A model generated the notes under the pieces. The model did not search any database and was not told the origin of the DNA. It saw only the letters and a program-made list of their open reading frames with translations. The position numbers and the translations under genes are program-made. From Lacrimispora celerecrescens (GTDB taxonomy: Bacteria > Bacillota > Clostridia > Lachnospirales > Lachnospiraceae): a stretch of DNA of 64,000 bases. This document shows positions 6,211 through 61,212 of the stretch, piece by piece (positions within the stretch are counted from its first letter, which is position 1; each line of letters starts with the position of its first letter). Location of the stretch: assembly GCF_000732605.1 (NCBI RefSeq), contig NZ_JPME01000008.1, positions 186,001-250,000 on the forward strand, given 5' to 3'.

Positions 6211-8240
6211 ATGACAGAAATCTACCCTTCAATCAAAGATATCCTTCCGGAAGGAATGAGCGTCTCCACCCTGCTGTCTCAACTGCGGGAACGAGTACTG
6301 GAGGCCAATCAACATCTTACCGCCCTGGAACGGGGGCAACTGGTAAAGGAACAGTTTCCCGAGCTTGCCGCGGACACGCTACGTCTTGCAGACGAAGCCC
6401 TGGCCGGACAGCTGGTCCTTCCCGGTACAGGCCCGGCACTCTACTATGTAGGCAATCCCCCGGAGTGGACTGTGAACCCTGTAGGGGATAATGAATACAC
6501 CTTTCATTTAAACCGGATGCATCATTGGAAAACCTTATGCGAGGCCTACAGCCTGACCGGTGCGCTCAAATATGCCCAAAAGGCCATACAGGAAATCACA
6601 GACTGGATTGACCGTGTCCCCTGCCCTGCCCTTAAGGACGAAACAGGGGCTTACGCACCCGGCCGATTCGATGGGCTCACTCCTTGGAGGGCCCTGGAGG
6701 TGGGCATCCGCGGATACCGCACCTGGCCCTATGTAATAGAGCTTTTGGCAGACACTCCCTATATGACGGAAGCCTTTCTGGAGAAGCTGCTTCCCTGTGT
6801 CTACGTCCATTGCCGGATCCTCTATGAGATATCCCCCCTCCTTTGGCCCAAGGCAGACCACAACCACTACCTGATGGAGAATTTAGGTTTGCTCTCCTTC
6901 TCCTTACTCTTCCCAGAGATGAAAGGCAGTGAAGCTTTCCGGGCCCATGCCTTAAGAGAGCTGGACCGCTGTATGGACGCTCAGTGCACCCCCTGCGGCG
7001 GACAGATTGAGGGCTGCCCCTCCTACCATAACGGATGTGTCTTTTGGTTCGCCATGCGGAATGTATTTTCCAGAAAGTATCATATAGAAGAATCGGAAAG
7101 CTACACCAGGAGGCTTAACAGCATGTTCCTCCACTCCATCCACTCCACCCGTGCCTGCGGCGGCAATTTCCCCTGGGGCGACAGCCACACAGCCGATAAG
7201 GAAACGATGTGCCTGGCAGCCGTATCTTGCTATATGGCCTCCGGTGACCGGAACTACTTAGCCGCGGCGGCGCATTTTTATCCCATTGCCTCCATCTTAT
7301 CAGACATCCGGGATAATTTGTGGCGGATTCCTGAGATTAACCGCTTAAAGGAGGATTTAAACTGGGCAGAGAAACATCCCAAATGCCCGGAGCTTCCCCT
7401 TCTGGCCTGGCAAAGAGATTTAAATCAGGTATATCTGCGTACCTCCTGGGAAACGGATGCCTTAAGTCTTATGACCGCCTGCCGCACCCCCGTGCAGAAT
7501 CAGCACGCTCATATGGACCCGGGAGGCTTTGATTTCACCGCCTACGGCCTGCCCCTGATCTCCGACCCGGGGATCTATACCTATAAAAGCGGTGAAAACC
7601 GTTACCGTTTCAAGCGTACGGCTTCCCACAACTGTCTCACGGTAAATGAGGCGGACGCCTGGGAATACCAAGGCTCCTGGCATATGGCCCGCAAAAAAGC
7701 GGCTGCATTTGTGCAGTGGAGCAGACAGAAGGGGTGACCTGCATCACCTCCCGCCATGAAAATTATGCTCCGGCCATTGCCACACGGCACTTGGCACTTG
7801 TGAATGACCGGTTCCTGGTAATCATCGACCATGTGACCGGACTTTCGAAGACGGATACCGTCCAGATCCACTATCACTTAAACAGGACCGAACTGATCCA
7901 CAGTGGAATGCGCTCGATCATCTCCTTGGATGATGGCCCTGCAATCGAACTGGCGGTGGGCGACGATCCGGCTGATTTGGTAATAGAAGATGGAAAAATT
8001 TCTACTATTAACGACGTCTGGCATGATTCTAAACTGGTCTGCTTCCATATAACGCCGGTTGAAAACGGAGAATGCTGGTTTGCCACCCTGGCCGTCCCCT
8101 ATCCTCAGTCCCCCGGAAAGCAGACATCATCGGTTCGGCAGCTTTCATCAGACGGCCGTCTCGTGCTGGAATGCCAGGCAGACAATCATGCCTTCCGTCT
8201 GACCTTGGACGGGAATCAATTGATCAGAGAGAACCTTTAA
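6211..8240 (+). pseudogene. Heparinase II/III-like lyase, disrupted by a one-base loss
   Basis: The N-terminal part is an (alpha/alpha) toroid domain with KADHNHYLMENLG near residue 218. The heparinase II/III core follows, with QNQHAHMDPGGFDFTAYG near residue 431. The first frame stops at 7735-7737; the beta-sandwich C-terminus (from VEQTEGVTCITS) continues in another frame from about 7716 to 8240. One lost base between roughly 7693 and 7716 explains this; an A6 run at 7693-7698 is a candidate spot. Repaired, the product is 676 residues, a normal length. AGGAGG precedes the ATG by 6 bases. No signal peptide is seen, so it is probably cytoplasmic, cleaving uronate-containing polysaccharide fragments by beta-elimination. 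Exact substrate (heparan, chondroitin or other) cannot be told. Confidence 0.82.
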
Positions 8241-8343
8241 TAGGACCGTATTTTTTGAATACATAATACAACATGGTGAAAGACGCGCATCATTTTTCTA
8301 TTACTATTTTGCCGCAGGCGTCAGCGGCGGAATGGAGATTAAT

Positions 8344-10488
8344 ATGACCGAAATCAATTCCAACACTGCTTATTCCCCAAAGGGTATAAAACATCGTCGG
8401 CCCATCCCTGACCGCGAAGCAGAAATTACAGATCAACAGCTGTTTGAGGCCCTGGATTTGGAACTGCCCGGGCTTTCGGCTGTGAAATCCGCCTGGAGGC
8501 AGGGTGATACCTCGGCTGCCAAAAAAGCCCTGGTCAACTATTTTGAAACCCGGAGCAATGTGGCCTATTACTATGATTACCGTCGGCTCCCCCTCCAGAA
8601 GATGGAGCCGGATGAGCTGCCCTATGCCTATCAGTCCTCTCTGGGCCTTAGGGGCAGCTTAAAGGAATTCTGCCTGCAGTCCGGGAAAAGCATGATGGAA
8701 CACCGCTATCTCCTTCCAGGTGCCAGAAAGGTAGAGGATTTGGGGCCCGCCTTTGAATCCATGATCCATTTTAATTTCCTGGAGGATCAGGGCAAACGCC
8801 ACCGTCACAGCCTGAACATGTTTGTAAGAGGCCAGTTCCTTGAAGCCCTCTGTGTCCTGTATCATGAAGACGGGGACCGGAATGTACTGGCTTCTTTTAC
8901 AGAAATTATCCATAAGTTTTTTGAGACTTATCCGCTGGTCGTTGAGGATCCGACTCCGGAGGCCAGCCGCTTCCAGTTCACAGAGGATCGGGATGCCATG
9001 AGTGTAGGCTGGCTGACCATGGTGCTCATCAGCCTGTTTTATACCAGAGTTCCATATGAAATCGACACAGACACTGCCTTCGAATTACTAAAGCATATCT
9101 GGTTTCTGGGTATCCAATTCCAGCGCTTTGAGTCAGATAGCTACCGCCCTTACAACCACCATATGTGGGAGCGCGGCCTTGTACCGTTTCTCCTTAGCAT
9201 TCTGCTGCCCGAGATTCCGGATTTCCGTGCCTATAAAGAAAGAGGTGCCGAGATCGTATGTCGCCATATCAAAGAGGACTTTAATGAGGATGGCGGCTAC
9301 AACGAGCATTCCATCGCCTACTGGTCGGGTGCTGCCGTAGGGGAAATGCTGTTTCGCGGGATCTATCTGGCAAAATTAAACCAGGAGCAGCTGTTAGATA
9401 AGGAAGCGGACCGGAAAATGTACGCCACCTTTTCCCTCTTAGCTATGCTGACCCCTCCCGGCCCCCTCTATCCTGCTCTTGGCGACAATGGAGGCCCTTT
9501 GGTGGATCCCATTCTGGGATTAGGCAGAAGCATTATGGACCATCCCATGTGCACAATGCTTTTAGATGCCAGGGTTACCGGGCAGGAAACTGATCCCTCC
9601 GTGCTCCCCCTGGACGTTTGCAGTCAGAGAGCCGGCTTCCTCTGCAGCAAAAGCTCCTATGGCCCCAAAGGAAACTACCTTCTCATGTCCGCCAAGACGG
9701 ACTGTGGCTGTTCCGGCCACAACCACATGGATATGTTGTCCCTGTTTGTCACCTTCCGCGGAGAAGAATTCATCGGAGAGCCTTATAGCGGCAAGCTGTA
9801 TCATTCCATCCGCATGGGCAGCCCGCACCGGGGATATATGTACAACATGACCTCTCACAACACGGTCCTGGCCCATGAGGAGCCTGTACTGCCGGATACT
9901 ATGTATGCCAACAAGTGGGGGGTATACCGTCCGGACTCGCCTGTTACGGACTACCGGACAGAACCAGACGGCATTTATGTAAGGGCTCACCATGATGCCT
10001 ATACCTACTGCCGCCATACACGCAGGCTTTTATTCCATAGAACCCGGGGACTAATTGTACGGGATGAGATGGAACGGGGAAGCCGCCAGACGGCTCCCCA
10101 CATACAGCGCTGGCACTTAATGCCCGGAACTGCCTGCCACGTACTGAATGATACTTCCGTCCTATTGGAGAAAAACGGAGTCTCCATCCTGTGCATATGG
10201 TCCGGCTGCCAGGATATCCGCGTATGGAAAAACACTGCGCTTTGCCCGGAAATATATACCTCCGAGGATCTTCTGGCACCGATTTTGGACATCTGCTTTG
10301 CGGCGCCCGAGGATAAGAAAGTAGATATCAGCACAGTTGGCCTAAGCCTTCTTATGCTGGATGTGACGGACGCACCGGACAGATCCCCGGCCGCACCCTG
10401 GCCCTTAAGCAGCTTAAAGGCACAGCTTAGCGCTGTGATTCCCATGATGGAGGACAAAGAAGCGCTAAACCATTTTCCTTCGCTGTAA
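8344..10488 (+). CDS. Heparinase II/III family polysaccharide lyase
   Basis: An intact 714-residue protein and a distant relative of the preceding lyase. It has an N-terminal helical domain (about residues 60-380, with RPYNHHMWERG near residue 265), the heparinase II/III signature CGCSGHNHMDMLSLFVTF near residue 458, and a C-terminal beta-sandwich. The start at 8344 is preferred because GGAG lies 7 bases upstream; an ATG at 8332 is an alternative. No signal peptide is apparent. Two different lyases in one operon suggest complementary linkage or sulfation preferences. The products would be 4,5-unsaturated uronyl oligosaccharides, matching the GH88 enzyme next door. Confidence 0.85.
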   Translation: MTEINSNTAYSPKGIKHRRPIPDREAEITDQQLFEALDLELPGLSAVKSAWRQGDTSAAKKALVNYFETRSNVAYYYDYRRLPLQKMEPDELPYAYQSSLGLRGSLKEFCLQSGKSMMEHRYLLPGARKVEDLGPAFESMIHFNFLEDQGKRHRHSLNMFVRGQFLEALCVLYHEDGDRNVLASFTEIIHKFFETYPLVVEDPTPEASRFQFTEDRDAMSVGWLTMVLISLFYTRVPYEIDTDTAFELLKHIWFLGIQFQRFESDSYRPYNHHMWERGLVPFLLSILLPEIPDFRAYKERGAEIVCRHIKEDFNEDGGYNEHSIAYWSGAAVGEMLFRGIYLAKLNQEQLLDKEADRKMYATFSLLAMLTPPGPLYPALGDNGGPLVDPILGLGRSIMDHPMCTMLLDARVTGQETDPSVLPLDVCSQRAGFLCSKSSYGPKGNYLLMSAKTDCGCSGHNHMDMLSLFVTFRGEEFIGEPYSGKLYHSIRMGSPHRGYMYNMTSHNTVLAHEEPVLPDTMYANKWGVYRPDSPVTDYRTEPDGIYVRAHHDAYTYCRHTRRLLFHRTRGLIVRDEMERGSRQTAPHIQRWHLMPGTACHVLNDTSVLLEKNGVSILCIWSGCQDIRVWKNTALCPEIYTSEDLLAPILDICFAAPEDKKVDISTVGLSLLMLDVTDAPDRSPAAPWPLSSLKAQLSAVIPMMEDKEALNHFPSL

Positions 10489-48531: not shown

Positions 48532-49401
48532 TTAATCCATGGGAACCCGCATCCACGCATCATAAATTTGATCCTTAAACGCCATTTCCTCACCAATCAC
48601 CGGAAGATTGCACACACAGTTGCCTTCTTTGGCCTCCTGCAGATACCCCCGTTTTAAATCTTCCGTCGAGATAAGCAGCGTCTTTCTCTCATCCGTAAAA
48701 AGCTCCGGATTCATCAAATATACTGCCGCGGTCACATCCCAGTTATAAAAACCGCCGATGCCATAGTCCTCCTCATTATACCCAAACCAATAATCAGTTT
48801 TCTCACGGATGTATGCAGCGGCCCTGTTATCTGAATTGAATAAACGTTCCTTATACTCATCCCTTGTAAACAGCACCTTCAGGCAATGATTCCCTGTAAT
48901 CACCGAGACATTCCTTCCTTTCGTAAGCACCGTCCACGTGGCAAAGGGATCACAGGAGAAATTCAGCTCGTCCATTACCTTTTTCTCAAACACAAGCGGG
49001 CTTGTAATCCCACCCATTACCACGATTTCTTTTACCTTCTCAAAAAAATGGTTGTCCCTTTCATAAGCCCCCCGGAGATTTGTAAGGGAACCGGTTGCAA
49101 GAATCGATAAAGATCCTGCATACTGATCCGCCATCTCTGCAAGGTAATCTGCTGCTTCACTTTCGTATGCCCCGCATCTTTCCCCGCCCATTTTCACCGG
49201 AATGTCCTCACGTCCCAAATCCTTTAACATGTTTCTACAGGTGTTGTATACAACATCCAACCGATTATTTCCATAAGTTGCCGTAATCCCGTGCACTTTC
49301 GCTTCCGGGCAGCCAAGAAGGTACATGAACGCAAGACCATCATCAACATCACAGTCCTTTACCCCAAATGTATTGTCACAGTCAAATATCACATGCTTCA
49401 T
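48532..49401 (-). CDS. Nucleoside hydrolase (IunH/RihB-like)
   Basis: A 289-residue protein with the nucleoside hydrolase calcium/ribose motif, here DCDNTFGVKDCDVDDGLA at residues 7-24, plus ATGSLTNLR near residue 100, VVMGGITSP near residue 130 and ELNFSCDPFATW near residue 147. The family cleaves the N-glycosidic bond of nucleosides. The first aspartate motif is DCDNTFGVKDCDVDD rather than the common DTDPGxDD, so the substrate may be atypical. It starts six bases after the ABC ATPase stop and closes the 14-gene operon, suggesting that the imported ligand or a derivative is a nucleoside. Confidence 0.85.
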   Translation of the reverse strand: MKHVIFDCDNTFGVKDCDVDDGLAFMYLLGCPEAKVHGITATYGNNRLDVVYNTCRNMLKDLGREDIPVKMGGERCGAYESEAADYLAEMADQYAGSLSILATGSLTNLRGAYERDNHFFEKVKEIVVMGGITSPLVFEKKVMDELNFSCDPFATWTVLTKGRNVSVITGNHCLKVLFTRDEYKERLFNSDNRAAAYIREKTDYWFGYNEEDYGIGGFYNWDVTAAVYLMNPELFTDERKTLLISTEDLKRGYLQEAKEGNCVCNLPVIGEEMAFKDQIYDAWMRVPMD

Positions 49402-49407
49402 CTAATT

Positions 49408-50429
49408 TTACGCTCCTCTCCGAAACCAAGTTACTCCGTTTTCCTCTATAGAAATACCGGTCCGGTCTCCTTCTTCCAGTCCCAGCCTCTCCAGTTCATG
49501 ACTCATGACCTGACTTACTATCACGCCCTCCGGTACCTCTATCTTCACTTCCGCCATCTCTCCCATAAATGCAATTCCGGTAATTGTATAGGTTCCCTCT
49601 CTTTCAAGGGTTACGGAATACGGCCGGATCATGGCCTCATAATCCCCGTCTTCCAGTTCTGAACTCATCTCAAACAGACTGCTATAAAACCTGTGATTTA
49701 TCATTCTTCCCTTCACATAGTTCACCCTGCCGAAATATTCCGCCACTGCCTTTGAAACCGGATGACGGAACATATTCCTTGGCGTGTCGTACTGTAAAAT
49801 CTGTCCCTCATTCATGAGCGCAATCCTGTCCGACATCTGCATTGCTTCTCTTTTCTCATGGGTCACAAGAATCGTGGTAATCTTCCGTTCCTGATGCAGT
49901 TTCTTCACAAGATTCCCCATCTTCAGCCTTAAGCATTCATCAAGTCCAGAAAACGGTTCATCTAAGAGCAGCACTCGCGGATTTGCAGCAAGAGCCCTTG
50001 CCAGTGCAACTCTCTGCATCTGCCTCCGGATATTTCCTTTATCTTCCGGTTCTCAAAGCCCGTAAGCTGTACTTCTTCCAGCAGCTTTTTCACCGTTTTC
50101 TTCCGAACATCTTTCGGTACTTTTTGAAGCTCCATGGGAAATGCAATGTTCTGTTCCACTGTCATGTGGGGAAACAGTCGTAAATCCTGAAATACGATGA
50201 CCGTCCCTCTTTTCTCAGGCGGAATCCCAGCAACCGATGCATTCTGGATCCGGATATCTCCCTGTTGGATTTCCAGAAGTCCGGCTATGCTTTTCAAAAG
50301 CGTTGTCTTTCCGCACCCGGAAGCACCAAGAAGCGAGATGAATTCCCCTTCCCGTATATCCAGGCTGATCCCATTAAGAATCACTTTTTTCTGCAGTACT
50401 ACTTTTAAATCTTCAACCATAAGGCTCAT
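49408..50429 (-). pseudogene. ABC transporter ATPase (YnjD-like), disrupted by a one-base deletion
   Basis: The first frame has Walker A GASGCGKTT near residue 40 and Q-loop VFQDLRLF, and runs to ISGG of the signature before going out of frame. The second frame begins with MQRVALARALA and contains Walker B VLLLDEPFSGLD, the H-loop ILVTHE and a C-terminal TOBE-like domain. Adding one base at 50020-50024 (GGC to GGCC) restores ISGGQMQRVALARA and a 340-residue protein. The start at 50429 follows GGGTGAGAG. As it stands the importer would lack a working ATPase unless the sequence is wrong. Family placement with YnjD/thiamine-iron type importers is inferred from the neighbours. Confidence 0.85.
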
Positions 50430-50458
50430 TGTTTCTCTCACCCTTTTCCCTTGTCGTC

Positions 50459-51280
50459 TCATTCCGATGTATAAAATTCTCCGCCCCCGTGTTTCATAAA
50501 GCGGCCTGCCGCCCACTCAAACACTCCAAACACCAGCAATGTCACGCCTAGAAACAAGGTGCTGTAAATACAGGCTATGTTTCTATTTCCGCTCTGCAGA
50601 TAAGGAACCATAAGGATCGTAAAGGTCTTTACATTTCCCCCGCCAATCATCAGCGTGAGAAAATACTGGCTGAAGGAAACGATATAGGACATACTCACCG
50701 CGGAAAGAATCACAGGCATTAACATCGGCAGAGACGTTTTATAAAAGGCTTTAAAAGGGGAGGCCCCCAGGACTCTGGCCTGTTCTTCCAGCCTGCTTCC
50801 TACAGCCGCCGTCCCATCCATGATGAGGCGTATCGCATAAGGGAGTGAACAGATCAGATGAGCAATGATGACCCCTGTAATCCGGTTATTAAGCCCCATT
50901 TTAATAAATGTAATCTGTATCCCCATTGCAAATACAGTGGCAGGAACCATAAATGGAAGGATGGTAAAAAAATACACCACCTGTTTTCCAGGGAAACGGT
51001 ATAACAATATGGCTCTCGCCGTCATAATGCCGATCACCGCTGATAAGACTGCTACAACCGTGGAAATTAAAATGCTTGACCAGAGGATTTGCAAAAGCTC
51101 CTTTTTTCTTCCTGCTATTTCAAAGATCGCTCTCTTTGAAAACACCTGAGGCGCCAAATCCGGCCATGTCCACCGTTCTGTAAAAATCCATAATAACAGA
51201 GTGACCGCCGGAACAAGAATGGCAGCCAGCAAAACGAACTGTGTAATGCTTATAAATATTGACTTTCTTTTATTCTTCAT
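50459..51280 (-). CDS. ABC transporter permease (YnjC-like, second half)
   Basis: A 273-residue protein with six membrane segments and a permease loop RLEEQARVLGASPFKAFYKTS near residue 180, as in importers for spermidine, iron, thiamine and the YnjC group. E. coli YnjC is one long fused permease; here it is split into two genes. It lies four bases after its partner and ahead of the ATPase. Confidence 0.85.
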   Translation of the reverse strand: MKNKRKSIFISITQFVLLAAILVPAVTLLLWIFTERWTWPDLAPQVFSKRAIFEIAGRKKELLQILWSSILISTVVAVLSAVIGIMTARAILLYRFPGKQVVYFFTILPFMVPATVFAMGIQITFIKMGLNNRITGVIIAHLICSLPYAIRLIMDGTAAVGSRLEEQARVLGASPFKAFYKTSLPMLMPVILSAVSMSYIVSFSQYFLTLMIGGGNVKTFTILMVPYLQSGNRNIACIYSTLFLGVTLLVFGVFEWAAGRFMKHGGGEFYTSE

Positions 51281-51283
51281 AGT

Positions 51284-52153
51284 TTATTGTTCTTCCGTTA
51301 AACATTTCACACTTTTCCGCATCATCAAAAAATATAGCAGCGAGCTGATAAGGGAAATCGCAATAATAATTCCATTTAAAGCCATGGCATAAGGCCGGTT
51401 TCTTAAATCCGGATGAATGTACTCCTGATACGCAAGAACTGGTAATGCCTTGGGAACCGTGGCCCCAAGCAAAAGGGGAAGCTCATATGCTCCCAGAGCG
51501 AATACAAAAATAATCAAAAATCCGCTTATTATTGTATTTCTGCACAAGGGCAGCGTCACCCTCCAGAACACCGTCCACGTTTTCGCTCCAAGGTTTGTCG
51601 CCGCTTCTCCCAGACTTCCGTTAATATTTGCCATCAGCGCGATGACGAAATAAATAATAAAGGGAATTTCTTTCCACAGATATGCCATGATGATTCCGAT
51701 CCCGTGAGGATCATAGATAAGCATGGGAAACTGCTGCTGTTCCTGTATCATGCCAAGCGCATAGGCAGCCCTGGCCAGGATTCCGTTCCTGGAAAAAATG
51801 TTGATAATAAACAGTGCCGTAACCACATGAGGCACAATGATCGGAAGCTGAATGATACGCATAACTGCTACCTGAGTCTTCTTTCCCATCACGCATACGC
51901 CGCAAAAAAATACGCCGCCTGCCGTTGCAAGAACCGATGAAAACAACGCAATCCTGAGGCTGTACAGCACCGATCTCATCATATCCGGCCGTGACAGAAC
52001 CTCTTTATAATACAAAAGTGTTGGCTTCTTTAACCCAAAAGCTGGAATTACCCCTAAACTTTGGGTAATTCCAGTTACTAATCCAATCATAAACAAAAGG
52101 GTAAGCAATATTTGGGGAGCCAAAAGAACATATGGCATCAGCTTATCTTTCAT
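51284..52153 (-). CDS. ABC transporter permease (YnjC-like, first half)
   Basis: A 289-residue protein with six membrane segments and the loop GEAATNLGAKTWTVFWRVT near residue 200. The start at 52153 overlaps the binding-protein stop by one base (TAATG), a sign of translational coupling; a longer start at 52180 is possible. It forms the transmembrane pair with the next gene. Confidence 0.86.
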   Translation of the reverse strand: MKDKLMPYVLLAPQILLTLLFMIGLVTGITQSLGVIPAFGLKKPTLLYYKEVLSRPDMMRSVLYSLRIALFSSVLATAGGVFFCGVCVMGKKTQVAVMRIIQLPIIVPHVVTALFIINIFSRNGILARAAYALGMIQEQQQFPMLIYDPHGIGIIMAYLWKEIPFIIYFVIALMANINGSLGEAATNLGAKTWTVFWRVTLPLCRNTIISGFLIIFVFALGAYELPLLLGATVPKALPVLAYQEYIHPDLRNRPYAMALNGIIIAISLISSLLYFLMMRKSVKCLTEEQ

Positions 52154-53397
52154 TATTTTCCTGCCACTTCTTCGGTCCATATTTCTTCAATTATGGGAAC
52201 AAGCTCAGCCGGCATTTCCGGAAGACGTTTTGATAACAGCTCTTCCTGGGGAATCGTTCCCTTTCCAAGGTCCACCCCATCAAATGATGCTTTCTGCTCC
52301 TTTGAAAGCTTTGAATTATCAAGAACCGGAATGACTTTTAATGTATCATAACGGTCAGCCTGAATTTCCGGAGACAGCATTTCATTGATTGCCACCATTG
52401 CTCCTGCCTTATTCCCTGAATTTGCCGCAATGGCCATAAAGTTGGTATTACCGATGGTCCCTTTCTCAAACTGGAACGACTGTGTTGTCTGCGTATATGC
52501 CCCGTCCGCTATCTTAACAGCAGTTCCGTAGGCATCATAGGTCATGTTCAGCACAACCTCTCCGTCTGAAAACATATTGTCCAGGGTCGTTGAGGAATCC
52601 GGGAAGGTTTTTCCTTCATTCCATAAGTACGGATTCAGCTCCCTTAAATATGCCATTGCAGGTTCCACAGCAGCTTTTACCGTTTCCTTATCCCCTTTCA
52701 TATCCAAAAACTGTTCGTAGCCGCAGATTTCATAGATTATATTTCTAACAAACGCACTTCCTGTAAAATCCGGAAGCGCCGGATAAGTCACCTTTCCCGG
52801 ATACTTCCGGACAAACTCCTTAAAGTCTTCGGCGCTTTTGGGCATGTCCGGGGTTACAGCCGTATCCGCAATCATCACGATCTGCGCTTTTCCATAAGGA
52901 GCTTCAAATCCTTCAATGGGATACGCAAAATCCAGTGTTACATCTTTGGACTTTGCATCTACATAATCTTGAAAATTGGGAAGTTTATCCACGAAAGGCC
53001 CATAGAGCATATTGTTTTCTTTCGCAGAACGGAAGTTTTCTCCGTTGATCCAGATCATGTCAATGCTTCCGTTCTTTTCGCCCGCCTGGATTTCTCCTGA
53101 CAATTGGCTTAACACCTGATCAATATCCATTGGAACACGTTCCATGGTAATGTCATACGTTTCCTTCATTGCCGGTGCGAAGGTATTGTCCAGCCATTCA
53201 TTCAGCTTCTCATCCCCGCCCCATCCATAAAATGTAACGGTAGTGCCCTTTGCTTCTTCCTTCATTGTTTCGAAGGACATCTCTTCGGTTACTGAAGCCG
53301 TTTTATTCTCTTCTTTTGGTCGTTCATTGTTCCCGCAGGCTGTCATGGAAAAAGCTATCGCAACTGCCAGAAGTGCTGCCGAAATTCTTTTTTTCAT
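52153..53397 (-). CDS. ABC transporter substrate-binding lipoprotein (YnjB-like)
   Basis: A 414-residue lipoprotein with lipobox FSMTACGN at about residues 16-23. The mature part starts VTFYGWGGDEKLNEWLDNTFAPAM; together with DMIWINGENFRSAKENNMLYGPF near residue 118 it resembles the YnjB family and more broadly iron/thiamine/spermidine-type binding proteins. It differs clearly from the sugar-binding proteins elsewhere in this window. The ligand of YnjB is unknown. The gene follows a rhodanese lipoprotein by 38 bases. Confidence 0.83.
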   Translation of the reverse strand: MKKRISAALLAVAIAFSMTACGNNERPKEENKTASVTEEMSFETMKEEAKGTTVTFYGWGGDEKLNEWLDNTFAPAMKETYDITMERVPMDIDQVLSQLSGEIQAGEKNGSIDMIWINGENFRSAKENNMLYGPFVDKLPNFQDYVDAKSKDVTLDFAYPIEGFEAPYGKAQIVMIADTAVTPDMPKSAEDFKEFVRKYPGKVTYPALPDFTGSAFVRNIIYEICGYEQFLDMKGDKETVKAAVEPAMAYLRELNPYLWNEGKTFPDSSTTLDNMFSDGEVVLNMTYDAYGTAVKIADGAYTQTTQSFQFEKGTIGNTNFMAIAANSGNKAGAMVAINEMLSPEIQADRYDTLKVIPVLDNSKLSKEQKASFDGVDLGKGTIPQEELLSKRLPEMPAELVPIIEEIWTEEVAGK

Positions 53398-53435: not shown

Positions 53436-54323
53436 TTATTTTACAAATGCTGCCTGGACGTCACCGTCTTTTGCCCCGTTTTCAATGATAAACAGATTCT
53501 TTTCATCAAAACCAGCATCCTTTAACACGGAAATCGCTGTCTTTGCGCATTTATTTCCGCTGTAGCATAAGAAATATACCGGCTCTTCTTTATTAAGCTT
53601 CTCTGCTGCCAGTTCATACATTGCTGTCTGTGCATCGGCACTTTCAAAATCCTTTAAATTAACCTGAAGAGAATTTTCCAAATGGCCTCCTGCATATGTA
53701 TCATCATCACGTACATCCACGATCTGTGCGTCCTTCTTTGCAATCACATCTGCTGCTTTTGCATACTGCCAGTCTATGCCTTCTTCCGCACGGTTTGTTG
53801 TCAGCGCACCTTTTTCTTTTGCCAGGGCTTTTGCTCCCCCTTCAACTGTGTAGATAAGACCTGCATCGATTCCAGCCTCCTCTAACACCTTTGTTGACTT
53901 CTGAGCCCCTCTTTGCCCGCTGTTGCAGATAATATAGATTTTCTCTCCGTCCTTTAAGTTTTCTTCCGCATATGCTTTCATCTGATCTGCCAGGGATTCG
54001 TCTTCCAGAGGGAAGATAGGACACCATTCCGAATTGGCAACTCTTCCTGCCCCGTAATTTGACCACTCCCTTACATCAAGGACATGTGTTTTCCCGTCAG
54101 CTGCCGCCTTTACTGCATCCTCTGCAGGTACAAACTGGTATTCCTCTTTCCCTGTGTTTTCTGCTGCTGATGTAACTTCCCCTGCCGTTGTGCCTTCTGC
54201 TGCCACTGTGCTTTCCACTGCTGCGGATTCTTTCTTCTCTCCCGTAATTCCAGAACTGCATCCTGCAATCATGGATACTGTCATTGCTGACACTAAAACT
54301 GCTGATAAAAACTTCTTTTTCAT
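53436..54323 (-). CDS. Double-rhodanese lipoprotein
   Basis: A 295-residue protein with signal peptide and lipobox SMIAGCSS, an alanine/threonine/glutamate-rich linker (about 25-60) and two rhodanese domains. Active-site cysteines are present in both: ICNSGQRGAQKS near residue 133 and LCYSGNKCAKTA near residue 252. It should be anchored on the outer face of the membrane. Rhodaneses carry persulfide sulfur or selenium on the cysteine. A second rhodanese lipoprotein starts the same operon. GGAGG precedes the ATG. Confidence 0.9.
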   Translation of the reverse strand: MKKKFLSAVLVSAMTVSMIAGCSSGITGEKKESAAVESTVAAEGTTAGEVTSAAENTGKEEYQFVPAEDAVKAAADGKTHVLDVREWSNYGAGRVANSEWCPIFPLEDESLADQMKAYAEENLKDGEKIYIICNSGQRGAQKSTKVLEEAGIDAGLIYTVEGGAKALAKEKGALTTNRAEEGIDWQYAKAADVIAKKDAQIVDVRDDDTYAGGHLENSLQVNLKDFESADAQTAMYELAAEKLNKEEPVYFLCYSGNKCAKTAISVLKDAGFDEKNLFIIENGAKDGDVQAAFVK

Positions 54324-54463: not shown

Positions 54464-55468
54464 TCAGCCAACAAATCCTGCTATTTTATCCAGGAATCCA
54501 TGGCTTAAATACGCCTCCAGCTTACAGGCTGTAGATTCATTGATTATTTCTTTGTCCGGCTGCTTATATTCTACCCAGGCCATTGCACACCAGGTGATAC
54601 CCCGCAGACACGTAATGGGGATATATGCCCAGGTCCGTTCTTTCAGACCGTCAACATTAAATCTACCTGCAGCCTTTTTGATATACGCATCTGTAAATTT
54701 CTCCATCTGTTCACTTTCTAAAATCACATCGGTCTTCCAAAAAGTTGTTGTGGGTGCAAGAAAGTGACCCAGATCCTGTGCCGGATCACCGTAAATCGGC
54801 TTTTCCCAGTCAATTAAGTAATTCCCTTTTCCTTCCCCGTTAATAAGAAAATTCGTAGAGTTCAGCTCTGTGTTAATGCAGCACCGGTGGCCTGGCTTTG
54901 TCAGACTGTCTGCCCTTTCCCAGCCTCTGTCAAGCATCCTGCGTATTTTTCTTTTCTTCCCTTCGTCCCCAAGAGCGGACTCTTCATACGTACGAAACAT
55001 CTCCTCGCATTCTTCCAAAATTGCTTTTAAAGGATTGTCCGGAGCTACCAGCGGCGTCTTCTTTCCAAGGTCAATGCTGTGTATATCCGCGAGGCAGTCT
55101 GCTGCATAAAGCAGTTCTTTTTCATAATCCAATGCATGTCCGGGAAGGTACTCCATTACCATTACTCCAAAGGGAAGCTTTTCCTTCGTTCCATCCACAT
55201 ATAAGGGTCTTGGCGTGCGTCCCGAATCTTTTAACAGCTCCAATGCCTGGAACTCATAGCCAATCTGATCTTCAAGATGCATTTGGCTTCCAAAATTTAC
55301 CCTCAGAATCAGCTTCTTCCCTGTCACCGGGTGAAGAAACAGGTAGTTTCTGTTATATTCACCCTGAGCCAGCATCCGGTATTCTTCTGTAACCTCCTTA
55401 GGAAGCCCCAGTCTTTCCCGGTATCCTTTCCACTTGATGTATTCTTCTAATCCCTGTACCTGATCCAT
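54464..55468 (-). CDS. APH-fold phosphotransferase with altered catalytic loop
   Basis: A 334-residue protein of the aminoglycoside/choline kinase fold. The nucleotide-binding lysine region KKLILRVNFG lies near residue 52, and hinge VMVMEYLPGHAL near residue 103. The usual catalytic HGDxxxxN loop reads NTELNSTN (near residue 200), so the catalytic aspartate is a glutamate and the histidine an asparagine. The metal-binding aspartate remains in YLIDWEKPIYGDPAQDL. It may be an atypical kinase or a non-catalytic binder. The start at 55468 follows GGAGG; 11 bases separate it from the glycosyltransferase stop. Confidence 0.8.
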   Translation of the reverse strand: MDQVQGLEEYIKWKGYRERLGLPKEVTEEYRMLAQGEYNRNYLFLHPVTGKKLILRVNFGSQMHLEDQIGYEFQALELLKDSGRTPRPLYVDGTKEKLPFGVMVMEYLPGHALDYEKELLYAADCLADIHSIDLGKKTPLVAPDNPLKAILEECEEMFRTYEESALGDEGKKRKIRRMLDRGWERADSLTKPGHRCCINTELNSTNFLINGEGKGNYLIDWEKPIYGDPAQDLGHFLAPTTTFWKTDVILESEQMEKFTDAYIKKAAGRFNVDGLKERTWAYIPITCLRGITWCAMAWVEYKQPDKEIINESTACKLEAYLSHGFLDKIAGFVG

Positions 55469-55479
55469 CTCAACACCTC

Positions 55480-56817
55480 CTATCTGATATCCCGGTACAT
55501 ATCCGAGATACGTTCTATGGAAGCTCCGTCCCGGTACATTTTTCGAAGCCGGTTCATTTTCCACATGAGCTTCAGTTTTGGTACGGTCCCTTTTGGAAAA
55601 CGCCTGTCCGATGTATAAATTCTTCTCCCTGCCATCCCAAGCTTCACCCGTTTTTCCTTTAATGTCAGTGAGAACTGGTAGTCTTCCATGATCGGAATCT
55701 CAGGAAACATTCCAACTTCAAAAAATAATTCCCGGTCTACAAAAATCCCCTGGTCTCCAAACATGACCTTCCGGTCCTTAACTCTATGGTTAGAAATCAC
55801 CCTGCATGTAAACATGAAAAAGTTATGGGAGTGAAATGCTATCCCAAAACAACCGGCTCGGTGATCCCTCATCACCCGCCTGATTTCCGCCAGTGGCTTT
55901 GGCGGAAGCTCACTGTCACAATGAAGGAAAAACAGAATATCTCCGCAGCTTGCTTTTGCTCCTGCGTTCATCTGCCTTCCCCTGCCTTTTTCACTGTGCA
56001 GCACGGTATATCCGGGATCTATTAATTCCAATGTACGGTCTGTACTTCCCCCATCCACAAACAATATTTCACATTTTCCCTGCAATTCCTTTAACTGCTC
56101 CTGAAACATTACAATTCTTTTTTCTTCATTATATATAGGGATAATAATTGAGATCGGAGTGATTCCAGCCGCATACCGCCCGGTTTCCGACTGCTTCAGT
56201 TCCTTCCTTACGCGCATCCGTTTCCGATACTCTTTTAAATCCGATGGAGTGTCCAAATCCCAAAGCTTCTTCGTATAGCCCACCGTAATTCCGGACTGGG
56301 AAAGAGCCTTTATGGTTTCCTCCAAGACCGCCCCATGTCCATACTGGTCAAGACCAAAGGCTTCCCGTCTGGCTTTCTTCATCCCTACGAGATAATATCC
56401 TCCGTCATGTGTTTTCCCGAACACCACATCCTTGGTTTTAAGCACTTCAAATGCCCGCATTAGATCACCGGAACGCAGTTCTGGCACATCCGTTCCTATC
56501 AGAATGCATTCCTCATAACCCATAGCAAATACTTCTTTAAATGCCCGGTACATCCGTTCCCCCAGATGTTCCCCCTGCTGCGGAAAGTACCCTTTTTGCT
56601 TTCCCATTATTTCCTTTAGATATCTCTTTTGTTTATCTTCTTCCGCGGTATAACAGACAAAAAAATTTGCCCGGCACTTTTCACATTCCTTATTCATGTC
56701 TTTCAAAAAACAAATATGAAGATTTGCACATTGCTGCGGACTAAGCTGGGGCATCATCCTGGTCTTTGTTATTCCCGGAATTGGTACTCTTGTAAATATG
56801 ATAATTGCCCGTCTCAT
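55480..56817 (-). CDS. Fused bi-domain glycosyltransferase/nucleotidyltransferase (TIGR04282-TIGR04283 type)
   Basis: A 445-residue fusion. Residues 1-200 match the DUF2064/TIGR04282 type (IIIFTRVPIPGITKTRM at the start, LIGTDVPELRSGDL near residue 100, THDGGYYLVG near residue 132, LWDLDTPSDLKEY near residue 187). Residues 220-445 match the TIGR04283 GT2 type (SIIIPIYNEEKRI, FVDGGSTDRTLELI, FLHCDSELPPKPL, GDQGIFVDRELF, MEDYQFSLTL). These two families occur as neighbouring genes and are annotated as arsenosugar-biosynthesis (earlier rSAM/selenodomain-associated) transferases. Here they are one polypeptide. The ATG directly follows the stop of the upstream gene. Donor and acceptor are unknown. 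Confidence 0.88.
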   Translation of the reverse strand: MRRAIIIFTRVPIPGITKTRMMPQLSPQQCANLHICFLKDMNKECEKCRANFFVCYTAEEDKQKRYLKEIMGKQKGYFPQQGEHLGERMYRAFKEVFAMGYEECILIGTDVPELRSGDLMRAFEVLKTKDVVFGKTHDGGYYLVGMKKARREAFGLDQYGHGAVLEETIKALSQSGITVGYTKKLWDLDTPSDLKEYRKRMRVRKELKQSETGRYAAGITPISIIIPIYNEEKRIVMFQEQLKELQGKCEILFVDGGSTDRTLELIDPGYTVLHSEKGRGRQMNAGAKASCGDILFFLHCDSELPPKPLAEIRRVMRDHRAGCFGIAFHSHNFFMFTCRVISNHRVKDRKVMFGDQGIFVDRELFFEVGMFPEIPIMEDYQFSLTLKEKRVKLGMAGRRIYTSDRRFPKGTVPKLKLMWKMNRLRKMYRDGASIERISDMYRDIR

Positions 56818-57270
56818 TTATATAATCTTTCCTAAAATTTCTAGTGTATCTTCCACTACCTTGGGGCAGAACTGAAGAAGCAGCCCCTGCTCCATCACCT
56901 TTGCCAGCTCTTCCTTCTTTGAAATATCATGCCCCAGTAATTCACGGCAGATACAGGAAGGATATCTCTCCCCAAACAGCCTCTTAAATTCCCCGGTTTT
57001 CTGCATCATTATCTGCTTTTGCCCGGTATCTCCCTCTTCACTATGCCCGTATTTCATTCCAAGCACCATCAAAGCCCCTGTAACAGCGCCGCATGTTTCC
57101 CCGCACTGCATACCTCCCCCAAAGGAGGCAGAAACCTTCCTAAGCAGTTTCTTATCGGCTTCTAATTCATCCGCAAACGCCCCTGCAACTACCTGAGAAC
57201 AGTCAATTCCCTGGAGGAATAGTTCCTGGATTTCTTCAAAAGTGATATGCTGTCTTTCATAAGTACCCAT
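56818..57270 (-). CDS. C_GCAxxG_C_C family redox protein
   Basis: A 150-residue protein with conserved cysteines C24 (GIDCSQVV), C56 and C60 (QCGETCGAVTGALMVLG), a CIC pair near residues 104-106 and a further cysteine near residue 136, the pattern of the C_GCAxxG_C_C family. The biochemical role of the family is not established; the cysteines suggest redox activity or Fe-S/metal binding. It is a cytoplasmic protein, two bases after the TVP38 stop and abutting the glycosyltransferase gene. Confidence 0.88.
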   Translation of the reverse strand: MGTYERQHITFEEIQELFLQGIDCSQVVAGAFADELEADKKLLRKVSASFGGGMQCGETCGAVTGALMVLGMKYGHSEEGDTGQKQIMMQKTGEFKRLFGERYPSCICRELLGHDISKKEELAKVMEQGLLLQFCPKVVEDTLEILGKII

Positions 57271-57272
57271 TC

Positions 57273-57977
57273 TTATTTCTCTCCTTTTTGTCTTTGTTTT
57301 TCCACGTATATTTTTCTTGCCATTACAATGAACGCAGACAATGCAAACAAGATCATAAGCCCTGTTACAAATAATTTTGCACCACCTGTCAGCATTCCTC
57401 CCACATAGGAATACACAATGGTCGCCGGAAGCTGACCGATACCGGTTGCAAGAAAGAAGGAGCCAAATGACATGGATGTTAGTCCTGCCCCATAGCTTAC
57501 AAGGTCAAAGGATACAAAGGGTAAAAGACGGCAGACCAAAATCGTACTTTTTCCATACTTTTCAAAGAAAGCATCCACCTGTTTTAATCCGGCCTTGCTT
57601 GTAAACCTTTCTGCCACATCTCTTCCCAGAACTCTTGAGATATAAAAGCATAGCGCAGCTCCCGCCATGGCACTTGTCCATGAAAGGATCGCTCCCTGCC
57701 ACCAGCCAAACAGGTTGGCATTTGCAAAGGTTATGAGAAAGGCTGGCAGAGGTGCCGCTATTGACTGAAATATCATAAGTCCAAAGGATATCACGGCCGC
57801 ATACGCCCCCCAGGATGCGATGAAATCTTTCACCACTCCAAAATCGCCGCTTGCAAACATTTTAAATACCAGATTCATGGTTCCTTTTACTGATGGTATC
57901 CCATAATAACTTGCTATCGCAGCCCCAATCCCTAATATCAACACGAATTTCTTAATCCATTTACTCTTTTTATCCAT
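57273..57977 (-). CDS. TVP38/TMEM64 family membrane protein (YdjX/YdjZ-like)
   Basis: A 234-residue protein with about five or six membrane segments. The family core (SNARE-associated/VTT domain) is seen in FANANLFGWWQGAILSWTS near residue 85 and RLLPFVSFDLVSYGAGLTSM near residue 145. The family moves or flips an undefined substrate, possibly lipids or metalloid compounds. It overlaps the preceding Fe-S gene by 8 bases. Two such proteins flank the Fe-S gene, as ydjX and ydjZ flank ydjY in E. coli. Confidence 0.9.
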   Translation of the reverse strand: MDKKSKWIKKFVLILGIGAAIASYYGIPSVKGTMNLVFKMFASGDFGVVKDFIASWGAYAAVISFGLMIFQSIAAPLPAFLITFANANLFGWWQGAILSWTSAMAGAALCFYISRVLGRDVAERFTSKAGLKQVDAFFEKYGKSTILVCRLLPFVSFDLVSYGAGLTSMSFGSFFLATGIGQLPATIVYSYVGGMLTGGAKLFVTGLMILFALSAFIVMARKIYVEKQRQKGEK

Positions 57978-58971
57978 TATTTTTCTCTCTCCGGTATTTT
58001 GTCATCATTCGGTTTACCACAGATCTGCCTGTGTCCGGCCCCTCGTTTCTCTCTAGTATTTCTAAAAGAATATGCTTTGTATCCTTGTATCCCTTTCTTA
58101 CAAAGTTCCCTGAACAGGAAGCACAGTAAGTATATATGGTCTTCTCACTCTCCTGCCCGATGCTGCATACCATCTGTTTTGCCAGATCCTTTTCTTTGTT
58201 CCCGGCGCAGCCTCCAAGCCCGCAGCACTGCACATGAGCGATCAGATCCGGTTCTTCCTTTAAAAACGCCCGTATGAAGTCCAACTGCTCTTTATTTTCC
58301 CTGTCCGGACAAGGCGGAAATATGGTAAGTCTTCCTTCAATCATTTTCCCGATTCCAAGCTCCTGTAATTTTTCATATATACTTACTACATTTACGTTCA
58401 GGCGAGGTTTTAAATAAGCATAGCAATTTGGACAAAGGGTAATCACTTCGTCCACACCGATTTCTCTAAGCTTTTTCTCAATTCTTCCAATAATCTCTTC
58501 TTCCTGCTTCTCCATTCCAAGCTCTGCGATGGGCTTTCCGCAGCAGTCAAATACTGTCCCAACATCTGCTCTTTCCCGAAACAGTTCCATCAGGTACTTG
58601 GTCGTCTTGGGATAATAAGCCGGAAAATTACAGCCGGGAAAAAGGACGCTCTTCTTCGCCCCAAGACCGTAATTCTGAAATAAATAGTTCTGTTTCTCCC
58701 TTACAAGCATTCCGTATCCCTTTTCACGAAGCTGTCCATCATTCCTCCGGACCTGCTCCTTTCGCATTCCTAAAACGACTTCTCTTCCGTCGATACCTTT
58801 GGGACAGACTTCAGAACATCTGCCGCATAAAAAGCAATGATAAGAAAGCTCCTCCAGCTTTTCTTTATCACCAATATCTATTTTGTATTTTTCCAGAAAG
58901 AGACAGTGCTGCCGGCAGATATGGCAATGAATGCATGCATCCGGATCCATGATTCTCGGCTTATCTTCCAT
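57970..58971 (-). CDS. Fe-S oxidoreductase with CCG domains (GlpC/HdrB-like)
   Basis: A 333-residue protein. Two [4Fe-4S] motifs lie at C13-C16-C19-C23 and C46-C49-C52-C56. Two CCG-type modules follow: FDCCGKPI with LCPNCY, and VQCCGLGGCAG with TYCASCSG, which in HdrB-like proteins bind a further cluster at a catalytic site. It is likely a membrane-associated electron carrier or a reductase of a disulfide-, selenide- or metalloid-like substrate. It overlaps TVP38 genes on both sides, so the three are co-translated. It takes the place that YdjY, a ferredoxin-type protein, has in E. coli. Confidence 0.88.
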   Translation of the reverse strand: MEDKPRIMDPDACIHCHICRQHCLFLEKYKIDIGDKEKLEELSYHCFLCGRCSEVCPKGIDGREVVLGMRKEQVRRNDGQLREKGYGMLVREKQNYLFQNYGLGAKKSVLFPGCNFPAYYPKTTKYLMELFRERADVGTVFDCCGKPIAELGMEKQEEEIIGRIEKKLREIGVDEVITLCPNCYAYLKPRLNVNVVSIYEKLQELGIGKMIEGRLTIFPPCPDRENKEQLDFIRAFLKEEPDLIAHVQCCGLGGCAGNKEKDLAKQMVCSIGQESEKTIYTYCASCSGNFVRKGYKDTKHILLEILERNEGPDTGRSVVNRMMTKYRREKNNG

Positions 58972-59642
58972 CCTGACCCTCCTGTATGTATCTCTTTTTT
59001 AAGAATACTCCCATTCCCATCACTCCAATTGCCAATACCGCCGCGATCCCCATATACAGCATCCGGTTTTCTTTGTCCGCAAGCCCAGCCGTACCAACTG
59101 TGTACATCGCAGTACCCGGAAGCATGAAAACCAGAGAACCGATTATGTAAGTGCTGAATTTAATATCTGTAATGCCGTAGGCAAAGTTTTGAAGGTTATA
59201 GGGAAATACCGGTACAAGCCTTGTAATGATGAGGACAAACAACTGGTTTTTTCCCGAATTGTCAAACAACCATTTATTTAAATATTTGTTCTTTATTACC
59301 ATTGGCCTGACAGCGTCTTTTAAAAAAAAAACGCCCAGCCGCAAATGCAAGAACCGCCCCGATTGTGGTTGCCGCGGAACAACATATTGTCCCCAGCACG
59401 GGTCCAAATAAGAGACCGGCAAAAATTGCAAATGTGACCCCCGGAAGGGCCAGAAAGGCACAACCCGCAATGGTGAGCAGCATATAGATTGCAATGGCAT
59501 AGGGGAGATTATTCTCTACCGCCTGCTTTAAAAAAGCCAGATTATCCATATTGCTGATATAGGAAGACCACCCAAATATATGATTCAAGCAAAGAATCAC
59601 AACGATGGTTCCTGCAAATACCCACATCTTTTTATTATTCAT
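58961..59642 (-). pseudogene. TVP38/TMEM64 family membrane protein, disrupted by one extra base
   Basis: The N-terminal half (ATG at 59642) runs through LALPGVTFAIFAGLLFGPVLG to AAGRFFFK, then leaves frame at a run of ten A (T on the minus strand) at 59322-59331. The C-terminal half, FLKDAVRPM to LVPVFPYNLQNFAYGITD and on to 58961, is in another frame. With nine bases in the run the two halves join into a normal 226-residue protein. It could be a sequencing error in the run, slippage, or true loss of function. It overlaps the 143-residue gene upstream by 8 bases. Confidence 0.85.
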
Positions 59643-60066
59643 TCTTTTTCTTTCCCCATATCATATGTATCGCCCCTGTTTTTATGATTTGCAACAGCGC
59701 TGCCACTCCAAGCATCAGACTGATAAAATAGTACGCTCTCATGGTCTTTGTGGAGCTGATATAAGTGAAAGTTCCATACAACGCTGTGAGAATAACCATG
59801 GCAAAATGCATTGCAACCTCCAGTCTCCCCTTTTGCCTGCGCCGGATAACCAAAGCTGCCAAAAGCACAACCGTCAATGCTGTCAAAACTGAAACTGAAG
59901 TGTATTTTAATGTTTCCATGGGAAACGTACGCTCCCATCCTTGACTTTTATAAATCACATATCTTGCCATCCCCATTTTTTTACGGGTAAAATACTGGAT
60001 GAGGTATGCACCCGCTAAAAATAGAAGCTCTGCAAAGGTCATAATAAAATATCCTATCTTTTTCAT
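59635..60066 (-). CDS. Small membrane protein of unknown function
   Basis: A 143-residue protein with four predicted membrane segments (about 5-25, 52-75, 84-105 and 112-132) and positively charged ends. I recognise no family. It lies between the first rhodanese gene and the second TVP38 gene, overlapping the latter, so it is part of the operon. It could be a partner of the TVP38 proteins or a quinone/heme-linked subunit, but no heme or quinone motif is obvious. Confidence 0.7.
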   Translation of the reverse strand: MKKIGYFIMTFAELLFLAGAYLIQYFTRKKMGMARYVIYKSQGWERTFPMETLKYTSVSVLTALTVVLLAALVIRRRQKGRLEVAMHFAMVILTALYGTFTYISSTKTMRAYYFISLMLGVAALLQIIKTGAIHMIWGKKKNE

Positions 60067-60131: not shown

Positions 60132-61212
60132 TTATTTTGCTGCTTTGTCCTTGGAAAGATTTCCTACCGTGGTATATTCACATTTACCGCTTTCAGGATC
60201 TCCCACTTGCACCGGTAGACTGTCATCCATCTGCCACTGATACCAGCCTCCGTCATAAAGTTCTGCGTTGGTATAGCCGTTTTCGTAGCAGATCAGAAAT
60301 GGGATTGTGGCTCTCCAGCCCGTTCCGCAGTAAAATGCCAGTTCATTGTCAAGAGAGGCTCCGGATTCTTTTAAATATCCTTCCAGCACATCAATACCAA
60401 CTGTCGTTCCATCTGCCTTATTATAGGAACCATCGTCAGTATCATGTCCCCAAATCGCGCCTTTGGGTTCTCCTGCTTTATCGATATATCCGTATCCGCT
60501 GGTTTCTCCAGAGAATTCTGCCTTGCTTCTGATACTCACTAATTTGAAATTGTTGTCACTCTCAAGTTTTTCTTTTACATCATCAATGGAAATAATATAT
60601 TCCGGATGGGCGGGAACTGTTGTTCCAAATGCCTTGTCTGTCGCTTTCGGCTTATTGCTGCCTTTTTCCGTACCGTATCCGGCTTTCGTCCAGGCCTCAA
60701 ACCCGCCATCTAAGCATTTTACATTATCTACTCCTGCCCAGAGCAGAGTAAATGCAACCCTGTCATCCGCGGAATTTATTCCATCCGCTCCATAGCAGAT
60801 GACTGTCGTATCTTTTGTTATACCATAATCGGCCATCAGCTTTTCGATTTCTTCCGGCGTACGGATGTTCCAGTATTCTTCTGATTCTATATAATCCGTA
60901 TTCATATGATAAGCACCCTTGATATGGCCTTCTGTATATGCAGGATTATCTGCTTCTTCCCCCCATGCACATTCCAGAATTACATAATCAGATGATTCTT
61001 CCTGATTCCCGTCAATAACACTTTGTACCCAGTCGGGCGATACGTACACCTTTTTTTTTATCCACAGGATCGGCTTTTACATCAGTCTTTTCTTCTTTCT
61101 CTGTCTTCTTCTCGCTGTCAGCAGGTTTACTTTCTGACTTTGCTGAACATCCTGCGGTCAGTGATACTGCCATGGAAAGACACAGCAATGCACCTAGTAC
61201 CCTTTTTTTCAT
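60132..61212 (-). pseudogene. YnjE-like multi-rhodanese lipoprotein, disrupted by one extra base in an A9 run
   Basis: The signal peptide and lipobox (SLTAGCSA near residue 22) and a lysine/glutamate-rich linker are in one frame; the rhodanese part, from VYVSPDWVQSVIDG, is in another. The switch is at nine A (plus-strand T at 61051-61059); eight would restore a 359-residue protein. The catalytic part has ICYGADGINSAD (cysteine, middle domain) and FYCGTGWRATIPF (C-terminal domain), the latter matching the CGTGWR loop of E. coli YnjE. It is the promoter-proximal gene of the 14-gene operon and should face outside the membrane. The homopolymer could be a sequencing error or a slippery phase-variation tract. 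Confidence 0.86.

Follow-up and report, generated by a model that had tools for sequence, protein, structure and literature searches.

A DUF2064–glycosyltransferase fusion protein in Lacrimispora celerecrescens and its possible role in sugar activation

The locus described here raises the question of whether two protein families joined in one chain act in sequence on a single substrate, and whether that substrate is an arsenosugar, as the database names of the families suggest. In the window—the whole 64,000-nucleotide stretch of the Lacrimispora celerecrescens genome that we analyzed (contig NZ_JPME01000008.1, positions 186,001 to 250,000)—the minus strand carries one frame (56817→55480) that encodes 445 amino acids plus a stop and contains no internal stop, with several stops occurring in plus-strand frame 1 across the same positions. 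The N-terminal part matches the NCBIfam model TIGR04282 with 198.8 bits (cut-off, 134) over residues 5-194, and the C-terminal part TIGR04283 with 235.3 bits (cut-off, 182) over residues 222-441, each along the complete profile (1-189 of 189 and 1-221 of 221 positions, respectively); the Pfam families DUF2064 (97.6 bits) and Glycos_transf_2 (66 bits) are likewise above their gathering thresholds. The models of the CofC/FbiD guanylyltransferases stayed below cut-off (Pfam CofC, 21.7 versus 22 bits; TIGR03552, 36.7 versus 105 bits) and neither half falls in another family, so that the assignment of the halves to DUF2064/TIGR04282 and GT2/TIGR04283 in the preliminary description stands. The chain is composed as follows:

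55480..56817, minus strand: fusion protein of 445 aa, DUF2064/TIGR04282 plus GT2/TIGR04283 (HMMs, recurrence, alignment, AlphaFold2 model)
56236..56805, minus strand: N-terminal DUF2064/TIGR04282 domain, residues 5-194, with a CofC/FbiD-like nucleotidyltransferase fold (Pfam, NCBIfam, fold search)
56155..56235, minus strand: linker, residues 195-221, mainly helical in the predicted model
55495..56154, minus strand: C-terminal GT2/TIGR04283 domain, residues 222-441 (Pfam, NCBIfam, fold search)

That an assembly error or a missed stop between the halves had produced this frame is ruled out by recurrence, since the fusion recurs as a single open frame at 19 further distinct loci; the existence of the one-protein fusion is thus confirmed at 20 distinct loci, the window included, in the family sample and the named-genome scan together. 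The proteins of the other loci are 41-69% identical to that of the window, the comparison for L038 being confined to the fused portion. A protein search of the family sample (200 genomes; E ≤ 1e-50) found matches in 10 genomes, nine in one frame and one (G019) split, and the named-genome scan provided 13 loci, each a single frame of full or nearly full length; L048 and L050 were left out as duplicates of L034 and L035, being the same loci as those of G124 and G038. Among the carriers are Clostridium clostridioforme, Merdimonas, Mordavella, Catonella, Muricomes, and Miniphocaeibacter; by NCBI rank the fusions belong mainly to the Lachnospiraceae, with one in the Eubacteriaceae, one in the Peptoniphilaceae, and two in the Clostridiaceae. 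At the level of the order (295 genomes, E ≤ 1e-30) six genomes had matches, two of them fused and four with the halves in separate frames, and three congeners of the window's genome gave no match in that sample at that threshold, the gene therefore being patchy within the genus. Term searches of a collection of open-access papers returned none on the fusion. A separate peculiarity was noted at L038 (9668-11746, minus strand), where a 692-aa frame contains diverged DUF2064 and GT2 domains together with an extra N-terminal stretch overlapping the frame of the Fe-S gene.

The two families had also been held to be usually adjacent genes, a statement that is true outside the fused clade. Among the 398 genomes of the phylum sample TIGR04283 exceeded its cut-off in 26 and TIGR04282 in 27, the window's genome being the only one with the fusion as judged by open-frame length. 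We inspected 26 loci (L120-L145; TIGR04283 exceeds its cut-off in 25 and falls short of it in L145), in 18 of which the GT2 gene is directly followed by the DUF2064 gene on the same strand; one has the order DUF2064-kinase-GT2 (L125), two have divergent neighbors (L127, L128), two have both genes apart and on opposite strands (L142, L144), and in the remaining three (L123, L141, L143) DUF2064 was not found by HMM within the stretch, L123 having a fragment. In the wider phylum, then, the pair consists of separate genes, mostly in the reverse order to that of the fusion.

Read-through of the usual gene order is, accordingly, not favored as the origin of the fusion, in which DUF2064 comes first; the likelier precursor is the order DUF2064-kinase-GT2, present at L125 and at L040, where a nucleoside hydrolase and DUF2064 share one 547-aa frame (7568-9211, minus strand), followed by the kinase and then by GT2. 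In the unfused G636 and G629, some 1.06-1.07 kb lie between the two domains, and kinase matches fall within those gaps. In a GT2 tree of 53 rows a single branch set the 20 fusions apart (support, 92/82; 93% of bootstrap trees). In a poorly resolved DUF2064 tree of 50 rows, which speaks against a single origin, the fusions did not form one group and required two changes, one change being sufficient in 0% of 200 bootstrap trees; the well-supported branches of that tree are compatible with a single origin.

The survey of the fusion's frequency and neighbors also gave us a map of its operon context. In the window all genes of the operon lie on the same strand, with gaps of at most 140 bp and mostly with overlaps or a few bases between them:

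60132..61212, minus strand: two-domain rhodanese, YnjE-like, frame-broken, with a separate-frame N-terminal stretch resembling a lipoprotein signal (Pfam, HMM)
59635..60066, minus strand: small conserved protein of 143 aa without Pfam match (recurrence in relatives)
58961..59642, minus strand: TVP38/VTT membrane protein 2, YdjX-like, frame-broken (Pfam, HMM)
57970..58971, minus strand: Fe-S / cysteine-rich (CCG) domain protein (Pfam, NCBIfam)
57273..57977, minus strand: TVP38/VTT membrane protein 1, YdjZ-like (Pfam; its HMM gives Escherichia coli YdjZ 323 bits)
56818..57270, minus strand: C-GCAxxG-C-C family redox protein (Pfam, NCBIfam)
54464..55468, minus strand: APH-fold small-molecule kinase, 334 aa from the likely ATG (Pfam APH, 72.2 bits; Foldseek)
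53436..54323, minus strand: two-domain rhodanese lipoprotein, the second rhodanese (Pfam; lipobox by eye from the translation)
52153..53397, minus strand: YnjB-type ABC substrate-binding protein (NF008633, 477.6 bits versus a cut-off of 203; E. coli YnjB, 249 bits)
51284..52180, minus strand: ABC permease 1, YnjC-like (HMMs)
50459..51280, minus strand: ABC permease 2, YnjC-like (HMMs)
49408..50453, minus strand: ABC ATPase, YnjD-like, frame-broken (HMMs)
48532..49401, minus strand: IU_nuc_hydro-family nucleoside hydrolase (Pfam, 132.9 bits; the family is homologous to solved nucleoside hydrolases)

Three of these genes—those of the YnjE-like rhodanese, the TVP38 protein 2, and the ATPase—are frame-broken relative to their homologs in relatives, the break adjoining a single-base run in two of them, and the breaks may reflect either sequencing error or decay; the fusion, the kinase, the binding protein, the permeases, and the hydrolase are single intact frames. 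The G+C content of the operon (44.4%) does not contrast with that of the rest of the window (45.8%), no riboswitch reached the Rfam gathering score between positions 47000 and 64000, and no tRNA was found in the 64 kb.

Homologs of the operon's two TVP38 proteins, of YnjB, YnjC, and YnjD, and of the YnjE rhodanese are encoded in the ydjXYZ-ynjABCD-ynjE genes of E. coli K-12, as recognized with HMMs built from the operon (YnjE, 266 bits; YnjD, 149; YdjX, 121; YnjC, weakly; YdjZ and YnjB as listed above), so that the window operon may be regarded as an extended relative of ydjXYZ-ynjABCDE; E. coli YdjY and YnjA matched none of the operon-built HMMs. The E. coli stretch inspected differs in containing no GT2, DUF2064, kinase, or nucleoside hydrolase, and a single permease gene as opposed to the two in the window. 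Because E. coli thus possesses the importer, TVP38, and rhodanese homologs without the pair, those proteins need not serve a sugar pathway. The E. coli genes appear in an FNR regulon table (PMC3688515).

Regarding the catalytic potential of the fusion, the AlphaFold2 model, built from 44 aligned sequences, had a pLDDT of 94.5 and a pTM of 0.90. The N-terminal domain found its best solved match, both by fold (Z, 30.3; 27% identity) and by sequence, in 3cgx, a protein of Desulfovibrio desulfuricans G20 with the title of putative nucleotide-diphospho-sugar transferase, which structure is nevertheless a separate chain; the fold is further shared, at 17-18% identity, by the probable nucleotidyltransferase MM2497 (2i5e; Z, 21.7) and by the CofC/FbiD-type 3-phospho-D-glycerate guanylyltransferase 7p97 (Z, 20.8) and Rv2983 (6bwh; Z, 19.6). 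These matches bear out the earlier suggestion that the domain is nucleotidyltransferase-like. For the C-terminal domain, the best fold match was the fucosyltransferase WrtF (9omm; Z, 20.9), tied with 6p61, WrtF having been solved with GDP-fucose among other ligands. In 19 aligned fusions the N-terminal domain conserves without exception R10, T17-K18-T19-R20, D110, D138-G-G-Y-Y (138-142), D187, and D189, and the C-terminal domain D255, D301, FGDQG (353-357), E378-D379, and R405-R406, these including acidic and basic residues such as one would expect in either active site. We take D255, D301, and E378-D379 to be the catalytic GT2/GT-A motifs and assume that the aspartates of the N-terminal domain match the metal ligands of FbiD. 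The C-terminal domain has both the fold and the conserved acidic motifs of the GT2/GT-A enzymes, and the model as a whole points to a CofC/FbiD-like nucleotidyltransferase domain followed by a GT-A glycosyltransferase domain.

We therefore considered a route in which a nucleoside, brought in by the YnjBCD-type importer or of intracellular origin, would be split by the nucleoside hydrolase; the pentose so freed would be phosphorylated at C1 by the APH-fold kinase; the N-terminal DUF2064 domain would transfer a nucleotide to the resulting sugar-1-phosphate; and the C-terminal GT2 domain would move the sugar from that NDP-sugar to an acceptor to give a glycoconjugate, the last two steps being joined on one chain. 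The hydrolase and the kinase would in this manner constitute the two-step counterpart of a one-step nucleoside phosphorylase. Each reaction, the order of the reactions, the C1 position, the nucleotide, and the chemistry of the sugar are what we infer, and we put at about one half the probability that the fusion, as a bifunctional enzyme, catalyzes both final steps of such a sugar-activation route, with the hydrolase and the kinase upstream. The fusion by itself is no proof of sequential action, the likelihood of which is raised by the presence of a kinase and a nucleoside hydrolase in the neighborhood; the two-step reading, according to which the donor used by the C-terminal domain is the product of the N-terminal one, is plausible. 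In favor of the route, the fusion is followed in the window by the kinase gene, which in the unfused L125 and L040 is situated between DUF2064 and GT2, and in L040 the hydrolase is itself joined to DUF2064; the presence of SelD in all 35 module genomes tested (see below) likewise counts in favor of the model. The element borne or received by the sugar in these genomes is probably a chalcogen (Se or S) and not arsenic, that assignment being the weakest point of the model.

The kinase itself calls for some caution. Its fold search with Foldseek returned APH, choline kinase, and MTR kinase without singling out 1-kinases; a role as a 5-methylthioribose kinase or sugar 1-kinase would be one possibility within the APH fold. 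The motifs NTE.N..N and DWEK are invariant in 24 aligned sequences, the glutamate of the former standing at the place of the catalytic aspartate in the usual APH motif HxD, so that kinase activity is not certain. The scans of this protein used 54464-55504 or 54467-55504, that is, 12 additional upstream residues. A comparable logic of import, phosphorylation by an enzyme of the APH/choline kinase class, activation with a nucleotide, and transfer operates in phosphocholine decoration, which involves the LicA kinase, the LicC nucleotidyltransferase, and the LicD transferase; the nucleotidyltransferase and transferase families of that system differ from those of the fusion.

The genes surrounding the pair, for their part, follow a pattern of their own. 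With our own HMMs and thresholds, we counted 49 loci of at least 9 kb (the short stretches L146-L153 being left out), of which 18 have ArsS, 15 have YnjB, and none has both, an outcome with a chance of 0.0002 if the two were independent and ancestry is ignored; among the 20 fused loci the figures are 7, 9, and 0, respectively (chance, 0.004, ancestry again ignored). The kinase accompanies YnjB in 15 of 15 loci as opposed to ArsS in 5 of 18, and the nucleoside hydrolase is present in 11 of the 15 YnjB loci and in none of the ArsS loci, whereas a homolog of the AhpD-like TIGR04169 is absent from the former and occurs in 13 of the 18 latter. Nine of the ArsS loci come from the phylum sample and lie outside the fused clade; no kinase or hydrolase occurs in the stretches inspected there, which, together with the scarcity of the kinase at ArsS loci in general, counts against the proposed route. 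Neither ArsS nor YnjB was present in the stretches of L033, L037, L044, and L047, ArsS lying about 1.4 kb beyond the inspected edge on the contig of L033. In G124 and G005 ArsS is encoded elsewhere in the genome, G124 combining a YnjB locus with an ArsS gene on another contig; the exclusivity is thus a rule on loci and not on genomes. Within the fused clade parsimony required four changes between ArsS and the importer, a number of which the well-supported branches of the poorly resolved tree force one or two, so that repeated exchange is suggestive only. Since ArsS interchanges with the importer and the nucleoside hydrolase around the same enzyme, a nucleoside-derived sugar is indicated as the substrate, and the database name "arsenosugar" is called into question. 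The natural fusion, moreover, suggests which two enzymes cooperate and offers a single protein with which to test the substrate of two uncharacterized families.

Pairs of the same two families are found in the ArsS clusters on plasmids of Burkholderia glumae and Acinetobacter portensis, there as separate genes, TIGR04283 followed by TIGR04282, with ArsS in the stretch; the window, unlike those plasmids, has them fused with DUF2064 first, lacks ArsS, and contains the kinase, the importer, and the nucleoside hydrolase. Methylthioadenosine phosphorylases yield a sugar-1-phosphate directly, and an enzyme annotated as such is encoded directly before the pair in B. glumae and, in A. portensis, on the opposite strand some 2 kb past the pair. 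Two routes to a sugar-1-phosphate—hydrolase plus kinase here, phosphorylase on the plasmids—may therefore adjoin the same pair. No such phosphorylase is listed in the two other ArsS plasmid stretches (2 of 4 plasmid records having it) and a search of the Bacillota stretches L032-L053 and L120-L153 with a two-seed HMM was negative; we accordingly rejected it as a general partner, the idea of a phosphorylase resting on two plasmid records.

A first alternative is that the fusion is a true arsenosugar enzyme, activating and transferring the 5-dimethylarsinoyl-ribose derived from the ArsS product, and that the organism of the window scavenges an arsenical nucleoside through the importer. Both halves do pass the NCBIfam models with that name; ArsS exceeds our HMM threshold in 7 of the 20 fused loci, and the four ArsS proteins of fused loci that were scanned with TIGR04167 (L032, L035, L039, L042) passed that model; and a radical SAM enzyme—ArsS, by the title of the work cited there—adenosylates arsenic in oxo-arsenosugar biosynthesis (PMC12159101). 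The gene content nevertheless makes this alternative unlikely. The window's genome, 99% complete, has no ArsS match over the 300-bit cut-off of TIGR04167 (best, 51.7 bits) and no ArsM match (NF008823) at E ≤ 1e-30, and no arsenic gene was recognized with Pfam and NCBIfam among the window proteins scanned, so that the "arsenosugar" type of the preliminary description is a doubtful label here and is not supported for this genome. Among the 35 module genomes tested, 15 have ArsS over cut-off and 20 are without it at E ≤ 1e-30; an ArsM-family match occurs in 14 of the 35 (12 over cut-off), namely in just 5 of the 15 ArsS-positive genomes (3 over the curated cut-off) versus 9 of the 20 ArsS-negative ones, which distribution shows no clear link to an arsenic trait via ArsM, a methylated arsenical being conceivably supplied by neighboring organisms. 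In G005 and G544 an ArsM-family match, below cut-off, lies near the ArsS gene, for which reason arsenic chemistry may occur in those two.

Selenium is the second alternative: the GT2 domain would join a selenium nucleophile to an activated pentose, or a selenium-bearing pentose would be moved by the pair, in either instance leading to a selenosugar by a route unlike that of SenB. SelD is present in all 35 module genomes versus 67 of 200 in the family and 260 of 398 in the phylum background, without correction for ancestry, in a count that leaves out four unfused order-sample genomes and those of the named-genome scan; it occurs in 10 of 10 family module genomes and in 26 of 26 phylum genomes with TIGR04283 (uncorrected p ~1e-5 each), SelD being one of three traits tried along with ArsS and ArsM. 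In addition, NCBIfam names point to selenoprotein members in the rhodanese-related, C-GCAxxG-C-C, and ArsS families, and a Se-glycosyltransferase exists in SenB (PMC10891094). Against this alternative, other uses of selenium could account for SelD: of four genomes checked, three have SelA, and in the window's genome, where SelA was not found at E ≤ 1e-30, SelD lies on contig C25 (L156) beside a selenium-associated LysR regulator and XdhA, both over cut-off, with a cysteine-desulfurase-family gene having a weaker SclA match and a guanine deaminase-like gene under cut-off. The SelD of this genome thus likely serves the selenium of molybdenum hydroxylases, and with a likely use of its own for SelD the link between module and selenium is statistical and indirect; nor did any selenium-specific NCBIfam family exceed its cut-off among the window proteins scanned. 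We accordingly regard this alternative as unlikely. Broader still, and a conjecture to which we give little credence, is the proposition that in most anaerobes the pair does not merit the name "arsenosugar" and that the fusion is the core of an unrecognized selenium-linked pathway, in which a nucleoside-derived pentose would be converted to an NDP-pentose and joined to or moved with selenium, ArsS and the importer plus hydrolase being interchangeable front ends.

It is improbable that the substrates of the two halves are unrelated and that the fusion serves only co-expression or assembly with other operon proteins: in L127, L128, L142, and L144 the two genes are indeed not neighbors on the same strand, and a Hymenobacter plasmid stretch, in an incomplete gene table, lists TIGR04283 and ArsS and no TIGR04282, but both halves keep their conserved residues in the 19 aligned fusions, the genes are adjacent in 18 of the 26 phylum loci, and the two-domain model is of high confidence (pTM as above).

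Returning to the neighborhoods of the pair, we noted a third context at L127, L133, L123, and similar loci, where TIGR04283 and TIGR04282 occur with an LPG_synthase_TM flippase-like protein; some of these loci have a small protein that by HMM weakly resembles the C-GCAxxG-C-C family, and in some the place of ArsS is taken by another radical SAM protein, BioB-like or of a different kind. Finally, the ArsS gene beside the fusion in G191 (contig C1, 2414404-2415291) has one in-frame TGA and possibly encodes a selenocysteine form.
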